Assembly: GCA_019677205.1 (NCBI GenBank) | Contig: JAAMXY010000556.1 | Span: forward strand, 1 to 38,768 | Reading direction: 5' to 3' | DNA from: Pinguiococcus pyrenoidosus | Lineage: Eukaryota; Sar; Pinguiophyceae; Pinguiochrysidales; Pinguiochrysidaceae | DNA length: 38,768 nt | Part shown: positions 25,663-38,703 of the stretch, piece after piece | Position numbering within the stretch: the stretch's first letter is position 1 | Layout of the letters: each line of letters starts with the position of its first letter | Program-made: the position numbers and the translations under genes | Notes under the pieces: generated by a model | What the model was told of the DNA's origin: nothing | Databases searched by the model: none | What the model saw: the letters and a program-made list of their open reading frames with translations, nothing else

Positions 25663-26947
25663 TCATTTCGCGTCCTTAATCGGCCCGCGGACTTGTGCCT
25701 CGTCTTCTTCGCCTTCTCCACCTTCTTTTTCTTCTTCCTCTTCTTCTTCCTGCGTATCTTCACCGCTTCGAACCTCTTCCATTCTGTCGTCTTCGGGTGA
25801 TTCTCTCCCCTCCACGTCATCCACACTATCCACACCCTCCGTAGCGACGCCGCGCCGTTCTCGCCGTCGCCTTTCGCGGATTCCTTTGCACTGGAGCCGC
25901 TGCGGAACGGTGGACTCCATCACTCTTTTCCAGTCGCGATCAAGCTGATACTCCACCAGAACTGTGCGCCACAAGGCAGAGCCAAGATTAGGATGAGAAG
26001 CAAAATCAACAAAGAAACCGTCCTGGGAGCGTTCGCAGATGCACTTTGGTAGGCTACGCACCTCGCATAGCAGTATCCACGTTCAGCACGTGCTTCGACC
26101 TGTCCTTGATGTACTCCTGCACGGGCAGCCGGCGGCAAAGGATCCTGGCGTGCCCGGAAGCCCCCGCTTCCGTCGCGCGATCTTTCGTGAGGTTCTTGGT
26201 GACCGTTCTGTCCACGATGCCGCCGATCACGTAGACCTTGTCGTCGTCGACGCTCTCCAAAACCTCCTCCGCATCCGGCGACAAATACACCAGCACGTCG
26301 TCCGGGAAGCACTCCGCTGGCCGCAGCGGAGAGCGATGCACCATCCAGTGGTTCACGCCGCAAGCCTGAAACATCTGCTCCACTTTGCCCGTAAAGGCGC
26401 AGAGGTGCACGCAGGGCGGCGCGTCCATCTTGCGCTTCATGTCCGAGTAGAAGTACCCAAGCTGCTTGGCCAGCGAGTTGAGATCTCGGTCCGACTGCAC
26501 GTCCGCAAAGTCGAGATCCACCGCTATCCGAAGACTGGCGCTCAATGCGCGCTGCATCTTCTCTATCATCTGCTCTTTATCTACTTTCTTTTGGCGCCGA
26601 AACGCCTCCAGCGCCTCGGGCGTAAGTTGCTCTTCGTATTCGCGCAGCTCATCTCCGCGCTTGCGCCGCCTCTCTCGCCTGCGCCGCTGATGCGCCAGCT
26701 TGCGCGCCTCTCGCTTTCGCTTCCGCTTCTCCTCCTTGCTCAGGCGCACAAAGTTCGCGGGTTTCACGTAGCTGCGCCCATTCGCGCCGATGATCACCTC
26801 GTCTTCGGCGGCCGAGGGGGCGGAGCTGCTGAGCCACGACGTACTGAAGAGGGTTCCCATTCCGGACCGCTTCCAAGCAATTCTGCAGCGGTGTCTGTGG
26901 GTGACAGAGCGGCAAAGCGCGCCGAGCATGCTCGCGCGCGCGCGCAA
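25663..26947 (-). CDS. Trm10-like tRNA (purine-9-N1) methyltransferase
   Basis: SPOUT-fold enzyme that methylates N1 of G or A at tRNA position 9 using S-adenosylmethionine. Predicted complement(join(25663..25961, 26062..26947)), 394 aa, one 100-nt intron, exact frame. Before the SPOUT core lies a strongly basic segment (SKEEKRKRKREARKLAHQRR) as in Trm10 proteins. Core motifs are RIAVDLDF (start of the fold), LAKQLGYFYSDMKR, DVLVYLSPDAEEVLESVD, and KVYVIGGIVDRTVTKNLT, with the Asp of the VDR motif. Then come RLPVQEYI and VLNVDTAMRVLVEYQLDRDW, which the splice reconstitutes. The C-terminus is a Glu-rich acidic tail. Alternative starts are Met codons at 26929 and 26857; a short basic N-terminus could be organellar. 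G9 versus A9 specificity cannot be told. Confidence 0.9.
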
Positions 26948-27563: not shown

Positions 27564-28661
27564 TTAGAGCAGAGCGCGCTTGATCCGATCAATCTTGCTG
27601 GCTACGCTCAGGTCCATGTACTTGTCCCCGATTTGGACCTTCAACGAGGAGGGCCCAGCCACGATTCAGTGCCTTCCCTTCGTGACGCCACTCCTTCAAG
27701 TTCGTTCGCTTGTCTCACCTGCAGACCGCCCAGCAGCTTGGGATCCACCTTGGCGTCCATCTCGATCTGCTGACCGGATTCCAGCGTCGCCTCGAGCGCC
27801 TGCGAAGGGGAAAGCAGAAGGGAAACGCAGGTGAGCGGGCCTGCCCTCGTTTCCTTTTCGCGGAGCTGAAGCGCACGCCCGTACCTTGCGAATCGCCGTC
27901 TTCTGCGCCTTCGTGAGCTTCGCGGCGGAAGTGACCTGCGCGCGGTGACGGCGAGAAGCAGCGAGTTAGGAAAGCCCCGCGCGCAACTGGACCGAGGTCG
28001 GTCTGCCCATACTTACCGTGGCATCGACGATGCCCTTCTTGGCCTTCATGAGGTCCCCAAAATTCTCCGTCACCTACAAGATCTCAAGTCAGCCCGCTGC
28101 GTGTCACAGGGCAAACCACGCGCAGCACCGAAAAGTCCGCAGACGAGTGCCCTTCCGACGAGCAACTGACCTTGTCGAGCTCGTCCAAGCGAGCGTTGGC
28201 CGCCATGGTCAGCAGCAGGTTCTTCGTCACGCTGGACATGCGGTCTCCTAGGATGCCGTCCAGGTAGGCCACCTTGGCATCCCGGCCCACGGTGGGGTTG
28301 GCCAGAGTGGCCGCGAACGCGGCGTTGGACTTGAGAACACTTCCAATCTGAAAGGGAAGCAGATACCATCGTCAGTCACACCACAGCACGGTGCCAGAAA
28401 GGGAAAACGCTTGAAGGTCTCGACCCCGAACCGTGAAGAAGAGAAGAACTTCGAGGACCACGAATGATGACTTACCGCGGCGATCTCCGTCTCGACCTGA
28501 TCGAGAGATCCCTCCTTCGACGCTGCGGTGTACGCCGCGTTTGCGTAGCGCGCAGTGAGGCCGAAGAGCTTCACTGGCGGGTTATGCGCGTCCGAGAAGT
28601 GGCGCACGGCGAGGCCAAAGGCACGCTTGGGCGCCGCCAGGCGGCGAACGGCGGAGAACAT
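27564..28661 (-). CDS. ATP5PO: Mitochondrial F1Fo ATP synthase subunit OSCP (delta-type)
   Basis: Oligomycin-sensitivity-conferring subunit of the peripheral stalk, linking F1 to Fo in mitochondria. Predicted complement(join(27564..27638, 27719..27799, 27885..27935, 28017..28073, 28171..28347, 28476..28661)), 208 aa. All five introns are GT-AG and phase 0, so each exon is whole codons. The N-terminus (MFSAVRRLAAPKRAFGLAVR) is a typical mitochondrial presequence. It is followed by LFGLTARYANAAYTAASKEG (the family's GRYAxALYxxA helix), then NPTVGRDAKVAYLDGIL and TKNLLLTMAANARL, and the C-terminal IEMDAKVDPKLLGGLQ then IGDKYMDLSVASKIDRIKRAL, which matches the conserved GG(x)x(V/I)xIGDKxxDxSV signature. 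Length fits the family (about 200-210 aa). Divergent from the MRH-EDEM gene. Confidence 0.95.
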
Positions 28662-29087: not shown

Positions 29088-32000
29088 ATGCTCCGGCGGG
29101 GGTTGTGCGTCGCGCTGCTGCTGCTGGCGCGCTGCGCGACGCCCGCGCGCCCGCGCGTGTCCGTCCGTCCGCAGCAGTCTCTGCGCGCGGCGCTCGACGC
29201 GCTGTCCAGCTGCTACACTAAGGCCGGTGCAGATGGATACTGGAGCTATGAGTTGTGCCCGCGCGCCAATGTGACGCAGTTTCACGAGCGCGTGCGGCGC
29301 GGAAAGCGCAGAAACCCAGTTTACCAACTCGGCGCCTTGGAAGAAGAGAGTGTTCACGTCGCACTGGACGACTCTTCCCATCCGGTGCTGCTTCTGCAGT
29401 ACCGAAATGGCAGCTTCTGCCGCAGCGCTTCCGGCCAGTCCTTGCGCCGCAGCGCGACGGTCGAAATGCGCTGCTGCGCCCCGGACAGCGCCGGGATTCA
29501 AGAGATCTCCGAGCCCGTGCCGTGCGTCTACATGCTCCACGCCTGCGACAGCGCCGTCTGCGACATCGATCTGGCGCCGGAAGACCTTCGACGACTTGGC
29601 GAGCCCGTCGTGACGGACGGCAGGACGCTTGGGGCAACGGAGCGGCGCGAGTATCGCGAGGAGGTGCGTACTTGTGCTGGGTCGCCGCTGCGTACTTGTG
29701 CTGGGTCGCCGCTGCTTTGGGGTCGCCTGCTGCCATGTAGAGGGCGCTCTTGGCCAAATCACCGCCAGGGCGTCTCTGCACGCGTCTACCCATATAAACA
29801 GGAAGCAACGAACCTTTGTCTCTCCAGGTGAGGCGCATGTTCGTGCATGCGTATGATGGGTACATGGCCTATGCGTTCCCGTCGGGGGAGATCCGGCCCC
29901 TGAGCTGCGAGCCGGGCAGCTTCGGCTTGGCCAGCCTGGACATGCTGACGCTCGTTGACGCGCTGGACACCCTGGCCATCATGGGCAACGTGACGGAGTT
30001 TCAGAATGCGGTGCGCCTCGTCACCCAGGGCTTGAGCTTCGACGTGGACCAGAACGTGTCGGTCTTTGAGACGTGCATACGGGCTCTTGGAGGGCTGCTC
30101 TCCGCCCACGTCCTGGCCTCGGACGCGCGCCTGAGCTTCGGCTCCGCCCCGGGATGGCAGTACCGCGGAGAGCTTCTCGCGCTTGCGGAGGACCTCGCGC
30201 GGCGTCTGCTGCCGGCGTTCGACACGCCCACGCGGATACCGTACGGAACCGTCAACCTAAGACATGGCGTTCCGGCAGGCGAGACGGTGATCGCCAGCAC
30301 GGCAGGAGCGGGGACGCTGAGCTTGGAGCTCGCGTACCTCTCCGTGCTGACGCAGAACGGGACGTACGCCAAGGCGGGGGACGCGGCGGCACTGGGCCTC
30401 TGGAACCGCCGCTCGAAGCTAGATCTCGTGGGAAAGCACATCAACACGCAGAATGGGCAGTGGACCGAGCCCGTCGCGGGCATGGGCAGCAACGCGGACA
30501 GCTTCTACGAGTATCTCGCGAAGCGATACCTGCTCAGCGGGCTCGAAGACCCCTGGCTCGACGTCTTCCGAGAGGCGGAAGAGGCGGTGGAGAGGAGCCT
30601 TCGGGTGGGCGACTGGTACGCCGATGTGGACGTCCACAGCGGCGACGTGAGGCGCATGCGCTTCGAGTCGCTCCACGCCTTCTGGCCGGGGCTGCAGGCC
30701 CTCATGGGGGACGCCCGGCGCCTGGCGAGCGCGGCGAGGTCCGCGAATGCCTTCTGGCTCATCGCGAAGGATTGGAACTTCCTGCCCGAGGAGTTCGACT
30801 ACGTCTCCTGGCAGCTCGTCGGCAGCGCGCATCCCATGAATCCCACCCAGTCGGTGTCCCACCCTCTTCGTCCAGAGCTGCTGGAGACGACGTACTACTT
30901 CTACCGCATCACGGGGGATCCGAGCTGGCTGACGCCCGCGATTCGATGGGTCGAGTCGCTCGATCGGTACTCCCGCACGCCCTGCGGCTTCACGGTGATC
31001 CGAAACGTGCTCACCCGGGACCGCGGGGACGAGATGCCCAGCTTCTTCCTGTCCGAGACGCTCAAGTACCTCTACCTCCTCTTTGACGAGGATCACTGGC
31101 TCCACGATAAGTCCTTCCTCTTCACCACGGAGGCCCACATCCTGTACAGCGTCAGCAGAGACCCCAACCCGCCGCAGAACTTCGACGGGCGGAGTAGAAG
31201 GGCGGCGCTGCCGCGCAGCACCGCTGCGAAGAAAGGCGCCGAGGCGGCCTGTGATGGCTGGAACGAGCTCGCGCCGTCTTTGCCCTGCATGGTGGGATAT
31301 GAAGATAGTGCCCTGCACAACCAGTGTGCAGTTGTGCAGTATCCCGCCATTCTCGCGCTAGGATTCCAGTGGGGCTTCCAGGATAAGCTCCTCGCGAGCA
31401 CCCACTCGTTGGTGAAGGCAAAGACCGGCCAGTGCCCCGTGCAGAAGAAGCCGCCGCGGATGCCCGCCGTCAGCGAAGACGAAGGAGTGCTCCAGGTCGT
31501 GGACACGCCCATGGGCGCGTTCTCCGTCGAAGTGCTCTCCGACGGCGTCAGCGTCGTGCGACAGGACGACGGAAGCGGCTTCGAGTACACACAGATGGTG
31601 CAGGATAGCGTGTTCCTTAGGGCCTACGGTGCGCACCGCGCCCAGGTGACGCTCCTGGACAGCGAGGGCAGCGAGCTCCGCTGTGGGGTCGCTCTTGACA
31701 CGGACGAACGGGGCTCCTCGGCAGTGCATCCGGACGATGCGCTCATCAACTGCACCCCAGCTGCCTTCGGCCCGAGCTCGGAACAGCCGTACAGCTCCCT
31801 GGATGGCATTCGAGTGCACGGCCCGATCAAGACCGTGCCCGAGCGAGCGGGACCGCTAGGATGCCTGCCGTACAACACGGAGCGGACGCCGCTTGCGGAC
31901 TACCAGGGCGCGATCATCGTGGTGCCACGCGGCGAGTGCACCTTTGAGCAGAAGGCGCTGCTGGCGGAACAGGCCGGAGCGGCGGCCGTGGTCGTGGTGA

Positions 32001-32506
32001 ACAACGTAGATGAGGACGTCACCCTGGTCATGGCGGGGACGAGTCCCGAGGACGGACCGCTCGTCCATCCGTCGACCAGCAAGACCAGCTTGGGTCCCGA
32101 TCGACTCTCCATCCCGGCAGTGATGGTGGCGAAGATGGACGGCGACGCGCTGAAGGAGCTGAGCAAGCGCGACAGGCAAGCCGAGATCATCTTGGAGGTG
32201 ACCCCCAAGGCTGGAGCGGAAGCGCCGTTGCCCAGGCAAGGCACCTCCGTGGACCTCGTGGCGGAAGTCACCGCCTACGCGGCAACGGTTCGCGACACGA
32301 AGCCGCTGCGCATGGCGAGACCCTTGCCCCGGAGTTTCTTCGCGGAGCAGGGCGTCTTCTTCATCGCGCATGAGGAGTGGTCCGTTCTTATCAGCGGGAC
32401 GGCTACGCAGACGCAAGGCGAAGACGCAAAGTCGACAACTTCGCAACTGCTCATCATCGACAACAGTGTCGAGCCCTTTCGTACCATTGCGCGCGATGGA
32501 AGATAG
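29088..32506 (+). CDS. MRH lectin-GH47 mannosidase (EDEM-like)-PA domain fusion, ERAD protein
   Basis: Predicted join(29088..29663, 29828..32506), 1084 aa, one intron. Signal peptide (MLRRGLCVALLLLARCATPA), then an MRH (OS-9/PRKCSH-type) lectin domain about 42-158. Its four sugar-binding residues can be matched: Gln 64, Arg 120/121, Glu 142 and Tyr 148, with paired Cys 42, 57, 111, 129/130, 146 and 158. Next is a GH47 domain from about 193 with family motifs SLDMLTLVDALDTLAIMGN, VFETCIRALGGLLSAH, NADSFYEYLAKRYLL, RPELLETTYYFYRITGD, SFFLSETLKYLYLLFDED and FTTEAHIL. A PA domain (about 868-970, with PRGECTFEQKALLAEQAGAA) follows, as in EDEM3. No KDEL-type tail. The role is inferred as trimming and recognising N-glycans on misfolded glycoproteins in the ER lumen. 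OS-9 and EDEM are separate proteins in animals and fungi, so the fusion is notable. Confidence 0.92.
29665..29712. repeat. 24-nt tandem duplication at the start of the MRH-EDEM intron
   Basis: Two adjacent identical 24-nt copies (TGCGTACTTGTGCTGGGTCG...) begin one base into the intron, immediately at the 5' splice site. The second copy is preceded by C rather than G, so it does not recreate a GT donor. Confidence 0.9.
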
Positions 32507-35877: not shown

Positions 35878-38703
35878 CTACTCTTTCCCAATTCCGTCAT
35901 AAGGCGTCAGGCCCAGATGATTCAGAACGGTATCGTCCGCGCCGCGCGTGATCAGGTACTCTCCAAAATGGCCATCCGGTTCATACGTCATCGCGAAGTG
36001 AAGCGCCGTGTTTCCCTTGGCGTTTTGATGATTGGGTTGGCATCCATGGTTCAACAACATCTCCGCCAGCTGCCGGTCCGTCTGCTGCGCCGCTAGGATC
36101 AAGAGAGTGTTGCCGTGCTCGTCTTCGGCCTCGGAGTCGAACCCAAGGTTGAGAGCGTCCTGAACACGACGTACGCGGCCGTTCCTGGCTTGGGAAAAAA
36201 CCATCTCCAGCGGCGGTAATTCGTCACTTGTGCCATCTCTCCGGTCATCTGTGCTCAGGTCTCTTTGATGAGAATCCCTCTGGACTTTCACCTGACGTCT
36301 CGGCGGTCTCCGCTTGTCGATGCCAACCAAAATCTTGCGGACGTGCAACTTGTGCTCAACGCCGAGGACGTCGCGCAGGTCCGCCTCGCGCAGCTCCAGC
36401 AGGAATTCGCCGTCCACGCAGGCCTCTTGGAACGCTCTGGCGTAGATCTGCAGCGACAGACTATCCAGCCAACGACCCACGTGCTCCACCGTCCACGTGC
36501 GGATGTCCTCGGGAAGAGCCTCCCGTCGTGGAAGACGCTCGCTACGCGACGCATGCATCTGCTCGGTCTGTGCGCCGTTTTTACCGTACGTCGTCGCGGT
36601 CTCATCCGTCTGTTCAGCTTCTTCAGAGGGTTTGGCTATCGCTGCTGCCGCCGCCACCGCCGCAGCCGCGGCGCCAGCCTCGGCGGCGGACGCCACAGCG
36701 CCCTTGGTGATGTCGACGTTCATGTCGCGCATCTGCGAAAGCGCGTTGATCGAACTGAAGTAGGACAGCGACATGGACATGAACTGGAACTTCATGAGCT
36801 CCTCGGTCTGCGCGAACATGGCCTTGGTGCGGCTCTCGTGCTCCTTGGCGCGACAGGCGGTGGCGGCGGCGGCCGCTGCCGACGTGGCCGTCGTCGTTTC
36901 CAACTCGACGCCCTTCTCTCGCAGCGCGTCCAACTCCTCCTTCTGCTCCGCCAGGAGAGACATGAGATCTCGCTGCGCGCAGCTCATCTCTCGCTCCTTC
37001 CTCTCTCGCGTGTCTTCCATGTCGCCCAGATCTCTCTCGAGCCGCTGGAGCGCTCCTCTCTTCCTTGCGACATCATCGTGAACGTGGAGGAATTCCGTCT
37101 CCAGCTCTCGACGACGCCGCTCCCTTTCCGCACGCTGCGTCGCCAGCGCCATCTCGAGAGCCCTGGCTTCCGGCGGCGGACGCGCCAAAGCTGCCTTTGG
37201 ATGGTTCCCTGGCTCCTTTTCACAACCGCGGAGGATGTCGTGCCGCTCTTGAGCCAGGCGCTGAATGTCCGCCTCCAAGGCGTCCACCTCTCCCAACTCG
37301 CTCTCGAGAACCTTGAGGTCCCCGGCGCTCGTCAGCAACTCTGAATAGATGGCGCTGACGCGCGCCTCGGCGCGCTCCTGCGCCTCGTGCAGTGCGTCCA
37401 CCTCGTCGCGCCGGTCGCGGAAAGCCCGCTCCGACGCCTCCAAGAGCTGCGCGCCCAGTTGGACTCTCGCCACGCCCGACCTGGCGTTGCTCCGATGCCT
37501 GCGTCGCCGCGCCACGCGTCGGCCCAGAAACCCTCGAAACACGCGTTGGAGCTCCGTGGCCGCCAGCAGCTCCAGCCGCCGTAGGCGATACATCTCGCGA
37601 GCTGTCATCATCCGCCACAATCCCTGTATCCTCGACGCGCTGACCTGGCGCGCACAAAGTGCCGCAGCCAACAGTCTCTCAGTCTCAGCAGCTCGTCTGC
37701 CTCTCCAGCCTCGAAGAACGCGCTGCAGCGTGCCGGCGTGCAGTTCATGCCGACGCAGTGTAGCCCAGCGGCGGCCGCGACGGCCGCGGAAAACCCGTTG
37801 GACGTCGACTGCGGCATTGTGAAAGCGTTGGCGCTCCGTTCGAAGTCGCCGCTCTTCGTGTGCGCGATGCAAGGCCTGGCGTCGTCGCACGATGCCTTGG
37901 ATCAAGGTACACGCGACGCGGCGCTTACGAGAGGCCCGACGTCGCGACAACAGTTTGGCGGCGGAGCGCCTTGCTAGAAAACCGCGACTCAATCGCTGGA
38001 CGTGCAGCGCCAACCTCTGCTCCTCTCGACGCCGCTCTTCCGCCGCGAAGCGCCGGAGAGCGTTTTGACGCGCCAGCTGCGCCCTAAGCATCCCTTGCTT
38101 CACCGCCATATACTCCGCCGCACTCATGACGCCCAAGTGGCGTTCGGCCGCCAACGCGTCCAGCACTCCCATGGGCCTGTCCTGAACACATGTTGGCAGC
38201 TCAGGGAGAGAGTCGCCACTCTGCGGCCGCAAAGAGCGCGCGACGCCGGTTTTTGCTTCGCTCAGAAGTGCGCAAATCGACAAGGCCGCTTCCGCGCTTT
38301 GCATGCGGCCGCGTGCTTCCTTGCACATCTTTCGCCGAGAGGAAATCCATTGGCGCTGTATTGCTGCCGCTTGCGCCGCGTCTTCAGCGGCGTAAAGGCG
38401 CCGTCGCGCGTCAGCTTGGTCTTCTAGGTTTCGGAGGTGGCGTTCCAGCTGGTCGCGGTGGTGGCGGTGGCGCTCTTGCACGTCGGACTCCCACCGCGAC
38501 TGGAGCTGGGAGACCTCGGCCGCCCAGCTTTGGATATCTGGGATGCTTTCCGATGTTGCGATGGTGGAATGGTGAGAATCCGGCGTCGGATGGCGCGAGG
38601 CGCCGTTCTGAGCGGTTTGGATTGAGAAGGTCGGGGATGATGAACTCAGCGGGGCGACCACAGGCGGCTTGAGAGGCTTTAAGGCCTGCCGAAGTATCGT
38701 CAT
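35878..38703 (-). CDS. IQ-motif / coiled-coil / SAM / ankyrin-repeat protein, possibly N-terminally incomplete
   Basis: A single exon of 941 codons from the first Met at 38703. Residues about 70-230 are charged and helical. About 230-405 holds six IQ-like calmodulin-binding motifs (for example LHVQRLSRGFLARR, VDVQRVFRGRRGRR, GTLQRVLRGWRGRR, TELQRVFRGFLGRR). About 420-620 is a long coiled coil with heptad-like charge. A SAM domain follows at about 733-795 (WTVEHVGRWLDSLSL.. GVEHKLHVRKIL). The C-terminus carries two to three ankyrin repeats (GNTLLILAAQQ, GNTALHFAM). This architecture suits a cytoskeletal or ciliary scaffold regulated by calmodulin, but that is inference. Upstream of 38703 the frame continues through a Thr-encoding repeat to the window edge without a stop, so the true N-terminus may lie outside. 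Confidence 0.82.
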   Translation of the reverse strand: MTILRQALKPLKPPVVAPLSSSSPTFSIQTAQNGASRHPTPDSHHSTIATSESIPDIQSWAAEVSQLQSRWESDVQERHRHHRDQLERHLRNLEDQADARRRLYAAEDAAQAAAIQRQWISSRRKMCKEARGRMQSAEAALSICALLSEAKTGVARSLRPQSGDSLPELPTCVQDRPMGVLDALAAERHLGVMSAAEYMAVKQGMLRAQLARQNALRRFAAEERRREEQRLALHVQRLSRGFLARRSAAKLLSRRRASRKRRVACTLIQGIVRRRQALHRAHEERRLRTERQRFHNAAVDVQRVFRGRRGRRWATLRRHELHAGTLQRVLRGWRGRRAAETERLLAAALCARQVSASRIQGLWRMMTAREMYRLRRLELLAATELQRVFRGFLGRRVARRRRHRSNARSGVARVQLGAQLLEASERAFRDRRDEVDALHEAQERAEARVSAIYSELLTSAGDLKVLESELGEVDALEADIQRLAQERHDILRGCEKEPGNHPKAALARPPPEARALEMALATQRAERERRRRELETEFLHVHDDVARKRGALQRLERDLGDMEDTRERKEREMSCAQRDLMSLLAEQKEELDALREKGVELETTTATSAAAAAATACRAKEHESRTKAMFAQTEELMKFQFMSMSLSYFSSINALSQMRDMNVDITKGAVASAAEAGAAAAAVAAAAAIAKPSEEAEQTDETATTYGKNGAQTEQMHASRSERLPRREALPEDIRTWTVEHVGRWLDSLSLQIYARAFQEACVDGEFLLELREADLRDVLGVEHKLHVRKILVGIDKRRPPRRQVKVQRDSHQRDLSTDDRRDGTSDELPPLEMVFSQARNGRVRRVQDALNLGFDSEAEDEHGNTLLILAAQQTDRQLAEMLLNHGCQPNHQNAKGNTALHFAMTYEPDGHFGEYLITRGADDTVLNHLGLTPYDGIGKE

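Follow-up and report, generated by a model that had tools for sequence, protein, structure and literature searches.

The question raised by this locus is whether the trimming of glycans and the reading of the trimmed glycan, which are assigned to separate proteins in yeast and human cells, can be carried by one chain. The locus lies on contig JAAMXY010000556.1 of the Pinguiococcus pyrenoidosus assembly GCA_019677205.1, of which positions 1–38,768 (the whole stretch analysed, hereafter the window) contain a predicted two-exon gene encoding an OS-9-type MRH lectin domain, an EDEM-type GH47 alpha-1,2-mannosidase domain and a protease-associated (PA) domain. An earlier note made from the sequence had proposed that these three stand in one predicted protein. 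This was borne out by Pfam, in which the hidden Markov models for PRKCSH/MRH, Glyco_hydro_47 and PA each scored above the cut-off on the spliced protein (PRKCSH/MRH: residues 48–111, E 1.4e-7), and by the nearest homologues, which are fused proteins with the domains on one continuous chain. By sequence, the same domain order is present in many stramenopiles, from water moulds to diatoms.

Joining exon 1 to exon 2 gives a product of 1084 aa, and the joint was assessed among GT-AG pairs with a donor at 29560–29829, an acceptor at 29640–29899 and an intron of at least 50 nt. Eighteen of these pairs keep the frame and are free of stops, with the motif MFVHAYDGYM retained in 13 of the 18, and YREEVRRMF is produced across the joint by 29664/29827 only, among the pairs tried. 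This motif is the helix that opens the GH47 domain, and its counterparts in EDEMs without an MRH are LREEVRGMFQHAY in P0093 (LREEVRGMF) and LREEVREMF in P0066. Third-position GC stands at 0.80 (exon 1) and 0.84 (exon 2), against 0.54 when the exon 1 frame is extended through the intron. The junction 29663/29828 given previously proved exact, restoring the first GH47 helix, and we infer that this splice is used in the P. pyrenoidosus gene. At the beginning of the intron a 24-nt unit occurs twice, the copies being identical and head to tail (29665–29688 and 29689–29712), and if the intron were retained an MRH-only protein of 247 aa would result.

Sequence comparison identifies the GH47 domain as EDEM type, not mannosidase I type. 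Its best solved sequence relatives are Htm1 (8zpw, 8.2e-62) and 29te, with Golgi mannosidase IA behind (1nxc, 1.1e-48), and the GH47 profile matched the window gene at E 2.5e-107 in a search of the genome. For the relative P0002, the top Foldseek matches were Htm1 (8zpw, 1.6e-33) and, from the EDEM:PDI (protein disulfide isomerase) complex, the Chaetomium EDEM (8pko, 9.6e-30); Z scores for P0002 were 48.2 for the Caulobacter structure 4ayo, 45.9 over 472 residues for 8zpw and 41.2 over 480 residues for 8pko, in which the first to last aligned residues of P0002 are 213–1051. By its residues the domain appears catalytically complete: catalytic E273, D416 and E542 and calcium-site T626 line up with the corresponding motif letters in ERManI (1fo2), where their counterparts are E330, D463, E599 and the Ca-binding T688, and they are conserved in the 119 fusions described below wherever the stretch is not gapped. 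E330 and D463 of ERManI are essential (PMC7835635). The cysteine pair C219/C578 aligns with C65/C445 of Htm1 (alignment to 8zpw), which form a disulfide, while the equivalents in EDEM3 contact ERp46 (PMC7835635, excerpt); the pair thus points to a putative PDI partner for the fusion.

The PA fold was recovered in P0002 as a match to the PA domain of VSR1 (7f2i, 1.2e-6). The description of this part as a PA domain "as in EDEM3" stood as regards the domain but not the placement, as PA is also found in fungal EDEMs (P0067 and P0112) and a KDEL tail is lacking. The GH47 tree discussed below holds no mammalian EDEM3 and no true animal EDEM1 or EDEM3 row, and the row annotated EDEM3 (P0093) falls among EDEM2 rows and has no PA domain. 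An [HKRN]DEL ending was found in 0 of the 118 database N-terminal fusions listed, some of these sequences being incomplete. The protein is predicted to enter the endoplasmic reticulum (ER) by its signal-like N-terminus.

In the lectin half, the four MRH ligand residues claimed earlier (Q64, R121, E142 and Y148) are all present, and the set is kept in most fusion rows, the window included. The tandem position, absent from the earlier note, is Tyr51-Trp52 in the window and Trp-Trp in many MRHs of the fusion set (first place W in 58 and Y in 29 of 104 non-gap rows), tandem Trp-Trp being a specificity motif of OS-9/XTP3-B-type MRH domains. Fold matches of the MRH scored 13.7 for OS-9, 13.0 for XTP3-B, 12.8 for GNPTG and 11.9–12.1 for the mannose 6-phosphate receptor and glucosidase II beta. 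The last ~35 residues of the exon 1 model, which are scattered in the alignment and of low confidence, were not used. A tree of 26 MRH domains, made to trace where the fused MRH came from, had very long ends and unsettled bootstrap, with 4 of its 23 inner branches starred.

The distribution of the fusion was followed in 190 distinct relatives (numbered with P), drawn from the best 120 of 388 and the best 120 of 1397 matches; this is a sample and not a census, and fusions outside stramenopiles may be missed by it. An MRH profile built from 18 rows (domain E <0.01) was run on 191 rows including the window, and placed an MRH in front of GH47 in 119 rows (101 of the 173 non-training rows), at the C-terminus in 2 and nowhere in 70. 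The organism-named N-terminal rows, a minority of rows, were all stramenopile among the matches listed, with lineage looked up for six organisms. They comprise water moulds (Phytophthora, Pythium, Saprolegnia, Achlya, Aphanomyces, Bremia, Plasmopara, Peronospora, Lagenidium and others), the thraustochytrid Hondaea, the pelagophytes Aureococcus, Chrysophaeum and Pelagophyceae sp., and the diatoms Nitzschia, Pseudo-nitzschia, Cyclotella, Thalassiosira and Detonula. Named stramenopile rows without an MRH call were the brown-algal P0015 and P0188 and P0039 (Pythium insidiosum, 848 aa), and the profile found no MRH in the named animal, fungal and green-algal rows among the matches listed. Going by record names, eight fused relatives derive from transcripts (P0048, P0126, P0162, P0181, P0186 and P0187 from MMETSP; P0045 and P0054 from Trinity, these two being MRH-GH47 without PA). 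A search with the MRH alone (P0003, residues 20–190) retrieved, out of 1393 candidates, no protein but P0003, the query having too few shared words.

In the GH47 tree of 47 rows the window lies among EDEM-type rows, with the mannosidase-I-like protein of its own genome (contig C647) as outgroup by choice, and pairs with P0002 (99/98) inside a 26-row group (92/91). A second GH47 protein of the window genome (contig C370) and both rows with a C-terminal MRH join animals, fungi and green algae in another group (91/77); the Hondaea rows, P0056, P0061, P0069 and P0087 have no firm placement. The 33 stramenopile-type rows form one side of a weakly supported branch (69/82), and 28 of them have MRH calls, P0057 being a fragment and P0061, P0015, P0188 and P0108 having none; 5 changes on the tree are needed if these four are counted as absent.

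The two C-terminal rows, both from EukProt, consist of an EDEM-type GH47 followed by an MRH (P0065, residues 756–890, profile E 8.4e-11; P0072, 626–764, 3.2e-3). Pfam PRKCSH matched P0065 weakly (0.029, below cut-off) and did not match P0072, and the Q, R, E and Y ligand set is kept in P0065 and not in P0072. In the tree both fall with animal EDEM2 (98/94), a placement that points to a holozoan origin and to a separate fusion event in reversed order. The approximately unbiased (AU) test does not reject uniting the two with the 33 stramenopile-type rows (p-AU 0.083), and the case for a separate event is therefore based on domain order and the EDEM2 grouping. They resemble the window protein in joining an EDEM-type mannosidase and an MRH on one chain, but in the opposite order and with no PA match.

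Elsewhere in the genome, the MRH search gave five matches on four contigs, namely two on C637, one each on C403 and C449, and the window. C637 encodes a separate two-MRH protein, both domains WW-type, whose best solved relative is erlectin (2.1e-19), and C403 a glucosidase II beta-like gene. Scored with the fusion-MRH profile, the erlectin-like MRH1 reached 81.4 bits, MRH2 45.4, glucosidase II beta 44.5 and C449 17.3, making the erlectin-like MRH1 the nearest genomic MRH to the fused one by profile score. The C449 gene (L008, 1093–1902, minus strand) encodes a small protein of 269 aa whose one MRH is divergent (YTYEWC; PRKCSH 4e-5, below cut-off). Absence of a stand-alone OS-9 was considered and rejected given the two-MRH protein on C637. 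The idea that the fusion stands in for a missing OS-9 likewise failed, the genome holding this protein and two further GH47 genes, of which C647 is mannosidase-I-like by eye and C370 falls, on a long branch, with the fungal EDEMs. Also present are ALG3, UGGT, three Derlin loci, a single homologue of Hrd1/SYVN1 and Sel1 repeats not assigned to SEL1L, and three contigs have matches to the family of ALG9, ALG12 and PIG-B; copy numbers are rough, as they come from an exon-by-exon search of a fragmented 23.7-Mb assembly. This genome could thus support conventional production and reading of the alpha-1,6-mannose signal, and the fusion adds to that machinery.

What the fusion contributes has to be judged against the yeast pathway, in which trimming by Htm1/Mnl1 exposes an alpha-1,6-mannose that is then read by Yos9 at the Hrd1 complex, and Mnl1 selects misfolded clients through a domain behind its mannosidase domain, a region in which extra domains vary between lineages (PMC12170172, excerpt). 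The likeliest reading of the domain content is that the making of the alpha-1,6-mannose signal is coupled to its recognition. We consider it somewhat more probable than its competitors combined that this EDEM-family protein trims N-glycans on misfolded ER proteins and that its own lectin then holds the alpha-1,6-mannose so exposed. The GH47 domain would trim the C branch of the glycan and the product would be captured in cis by the MRH, a flexible linker between the two allowing the lectin to reach glycans around the active site. The marked client would stay on the enzyme while its other glycans are trimmed, and the separate erlectin-like protein would then receive it at the Hrd1 complex.

Several observations weigh against this coupling. 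XTP3-B has Trp-Trp in MRH2, which was shown to bind alpha-1,6-mannose glycans (PMC7835635, excerpt), and Tyr-Trp in MRH1, as the window has in Tyr51-Trp52. The leading MRH folds are tied, and specificity is therefore not given by fold alone; similarly, mannosidase-I-type and bacterial GH47 structures equal or exceed Htm1 by Z, so it is the sequence, not the fold, that singles out EDEM. Ligand residues (Q and R, or more) are lost in P0069, P0087, P0137, P0040 and others in which the GH47 domain is present and, with P0015 and P0188 lacking an MRH match, glycan reading is not universal and would not be kept in every fusion relative. With a separate erlectin-like protein present, basic recognition does not require the fused lectin, the window protein ends in RDGR without a KDEL-type tail, and in the P0002 model (predicted template modelling score 0.56) the linker has a predicted local distance difference test score <50, making the placement of MRH relative to GH47 unreliable.

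Among the alternatives, the one that survives best, though we consider it unlikely, is that the MRH binds mannoses on another arm of an untrimmed glycan and feeds the substrate to GH47, by analogy with glucosidase II. The MRH profile speaks against it, erlectin and OS-9 chains standing well above glucosidase II beta (8kes 3.2e-30, 3aih 2.4e-18, 7kad 3.8e-5), as does the lead of the erlectin-like MRH1 over glucosidase II beta within the genome (81.4 versus 44.5 bits), although with MRH2 at 45.4 that margin rests on MRH1. Still less probable is that the MRH serves mainly as a protein-binding module docking the EDEM on SEL1L/Hrd3, as OS-9 and XTP3-B do, with glycan binding secondary or lost. The fold matches include solved SEL1L-HRD1 complexes of OS-9 and XTP3-B (9og0, 8ket), a lectin-dead OS-9 still bound Sel1L in one study while an earlier study found the opposite (both cited in PMC7835635, excerpt), and the residue losses in P0069, P0087, P0137 and P0040 make a switch from glycan reading to scaffolding possible in those relatives; a pure scaffold, however, would not need the four ligand residues that most rows and the window keep. 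Least credible by far is a pair of separate genes, a 247-aa MRH protein from exon 1 plus intron (the exon 1 frame is open through the intron to a stop at 29829–29831) and a GH47-PA protein whose start, like that of the 880-aa database record P0001, lies in exon 2, since that record begins inside the GH47 domain with no signal-like N-terminus by eye, the 29663/29828 joint restores the first GH47 helix, and at least 118 database proteins, several transcript-derived, have both domains on one chain.

The coupling of trimming and recognition may extend beyond this gene. Our wider proposal, a tentative one, is of a stramenopile-wide fusion of writer and reader in which the mannosidase holds its product and thereby commits the client processively, with an animal-side lineage having arrived at the same combination independently and in the opposite order. 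The coordinates of the gene and of its neighbours are collected in Table 1; by eye, the divergent OSCP/delta-like gene continues past a short intron.

Table 1 Features of the fusion gene and neighbouring genes in the window.
Feature	Position	Strand	Description
Exon 1	29088-29663	+	192 codons; signal-peptide-like N-terminus (residues 1-about 22, by eye), OS-9-type MRH (residues about 40-162)
Intron	29664-29827	+	GT-AG, 164 nt, GTGCGT...CTCTCCAG
Exon 2	29828-32506 (incl. stop)	+	Remainder of protein, GH47 to PA; inside 896-codon open frame 29816-32506
GH47 (EDEM-type alpha-1,2-mannosidase)	29837-31144	+	Residues 196-631; PF01532 positions 1-453/455, E 6e-107
PA (protease-associated) domain	31850-32152	+	Residues 867-967; PF02225 E 1.8e-16
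tRNA (guanine-N1) methyltransferase-family protein	26054-26947	-	PF01746 5.3e-13
Start of ATP synthase OSCP/delta-like gene	28248-28661	-	Divergent neighbour; Pfam OSCP 0.0016, below cut-off
941-aa open frame	35878-38703	-	SAM domain and ankyrin repeats; IQ-like repeats by eye

Proteins of this kind are already known to databases, whose pipelines list the three Pfam domains and name one of them 'MRH domain-containing protein' (Phytophthora boehmeriae PHYBOEH_002600); another, from Hondaea fermentalgiana, is entered as 'Mannosyl-oligosaccharide alpha-1,2-mannosidase', and among the matches listed the stramenopile MRH-GH47-PA entries carry automatic names only. We found no description of an MRH-GH47 fusion by title or abstract in the open-licence PMC papers searched, and a diatom N-glycoproteome study names an EDEM, with no mention of MRH or OS-9 in a term search (PMC8678454). 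The handover of the trimmed-glycan signal from EDEM to OS-9/XTP3-B is not fully settled, and a natural fusion of EDEM- and OS-9-type domains retained by many members of a major eukaryotic group would be evidence for their close joint action. A one-chain construct would allow trimming, product capture and handover to be separated by point mutation, and yeast and mammalian models of ER-associated degradation would not transfer directly to diatoms, pelagophytes, thraustochytrids and water moulds.

Compared with known systems, the window protein is closest to the other stramenopile MRH-GH47-PA proteins, which have the same domain order and mostly keep the lectin and catalytic residues, although Trp-Trp stood in 11 of 11 oomycete rows checked where the window has Tyr-Trp. 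With Htm1/Mnl1 and EDEM1-3 of yeast, human and Chaetomium it shares the GH47 catalytic residues and the cysteine pair of the C65/C445 type (Htm1), and with EDEM3 and fungal EDEMs the PA domain. Glucosidase II likewise pairs a glycosidase with an MRH lectin in the ER, but consists of two subunits, the MRH on beta and the GH31 catalytic alpha, where the window has one chain, in a genome with its own beta-like gene (C403). The extra domains of Htm1/EDEM follow the mannosidase domain (PMC12170172, excerpt), whereas the MRH of the window protein stands in front of it. OS-9, Yos9 and XTP3-B have the MRH fold and the Q/R/E/Y ligand set in common with the window but are separate lectins without a mannosidase domain, whereas here the MRH is fused to GH47.
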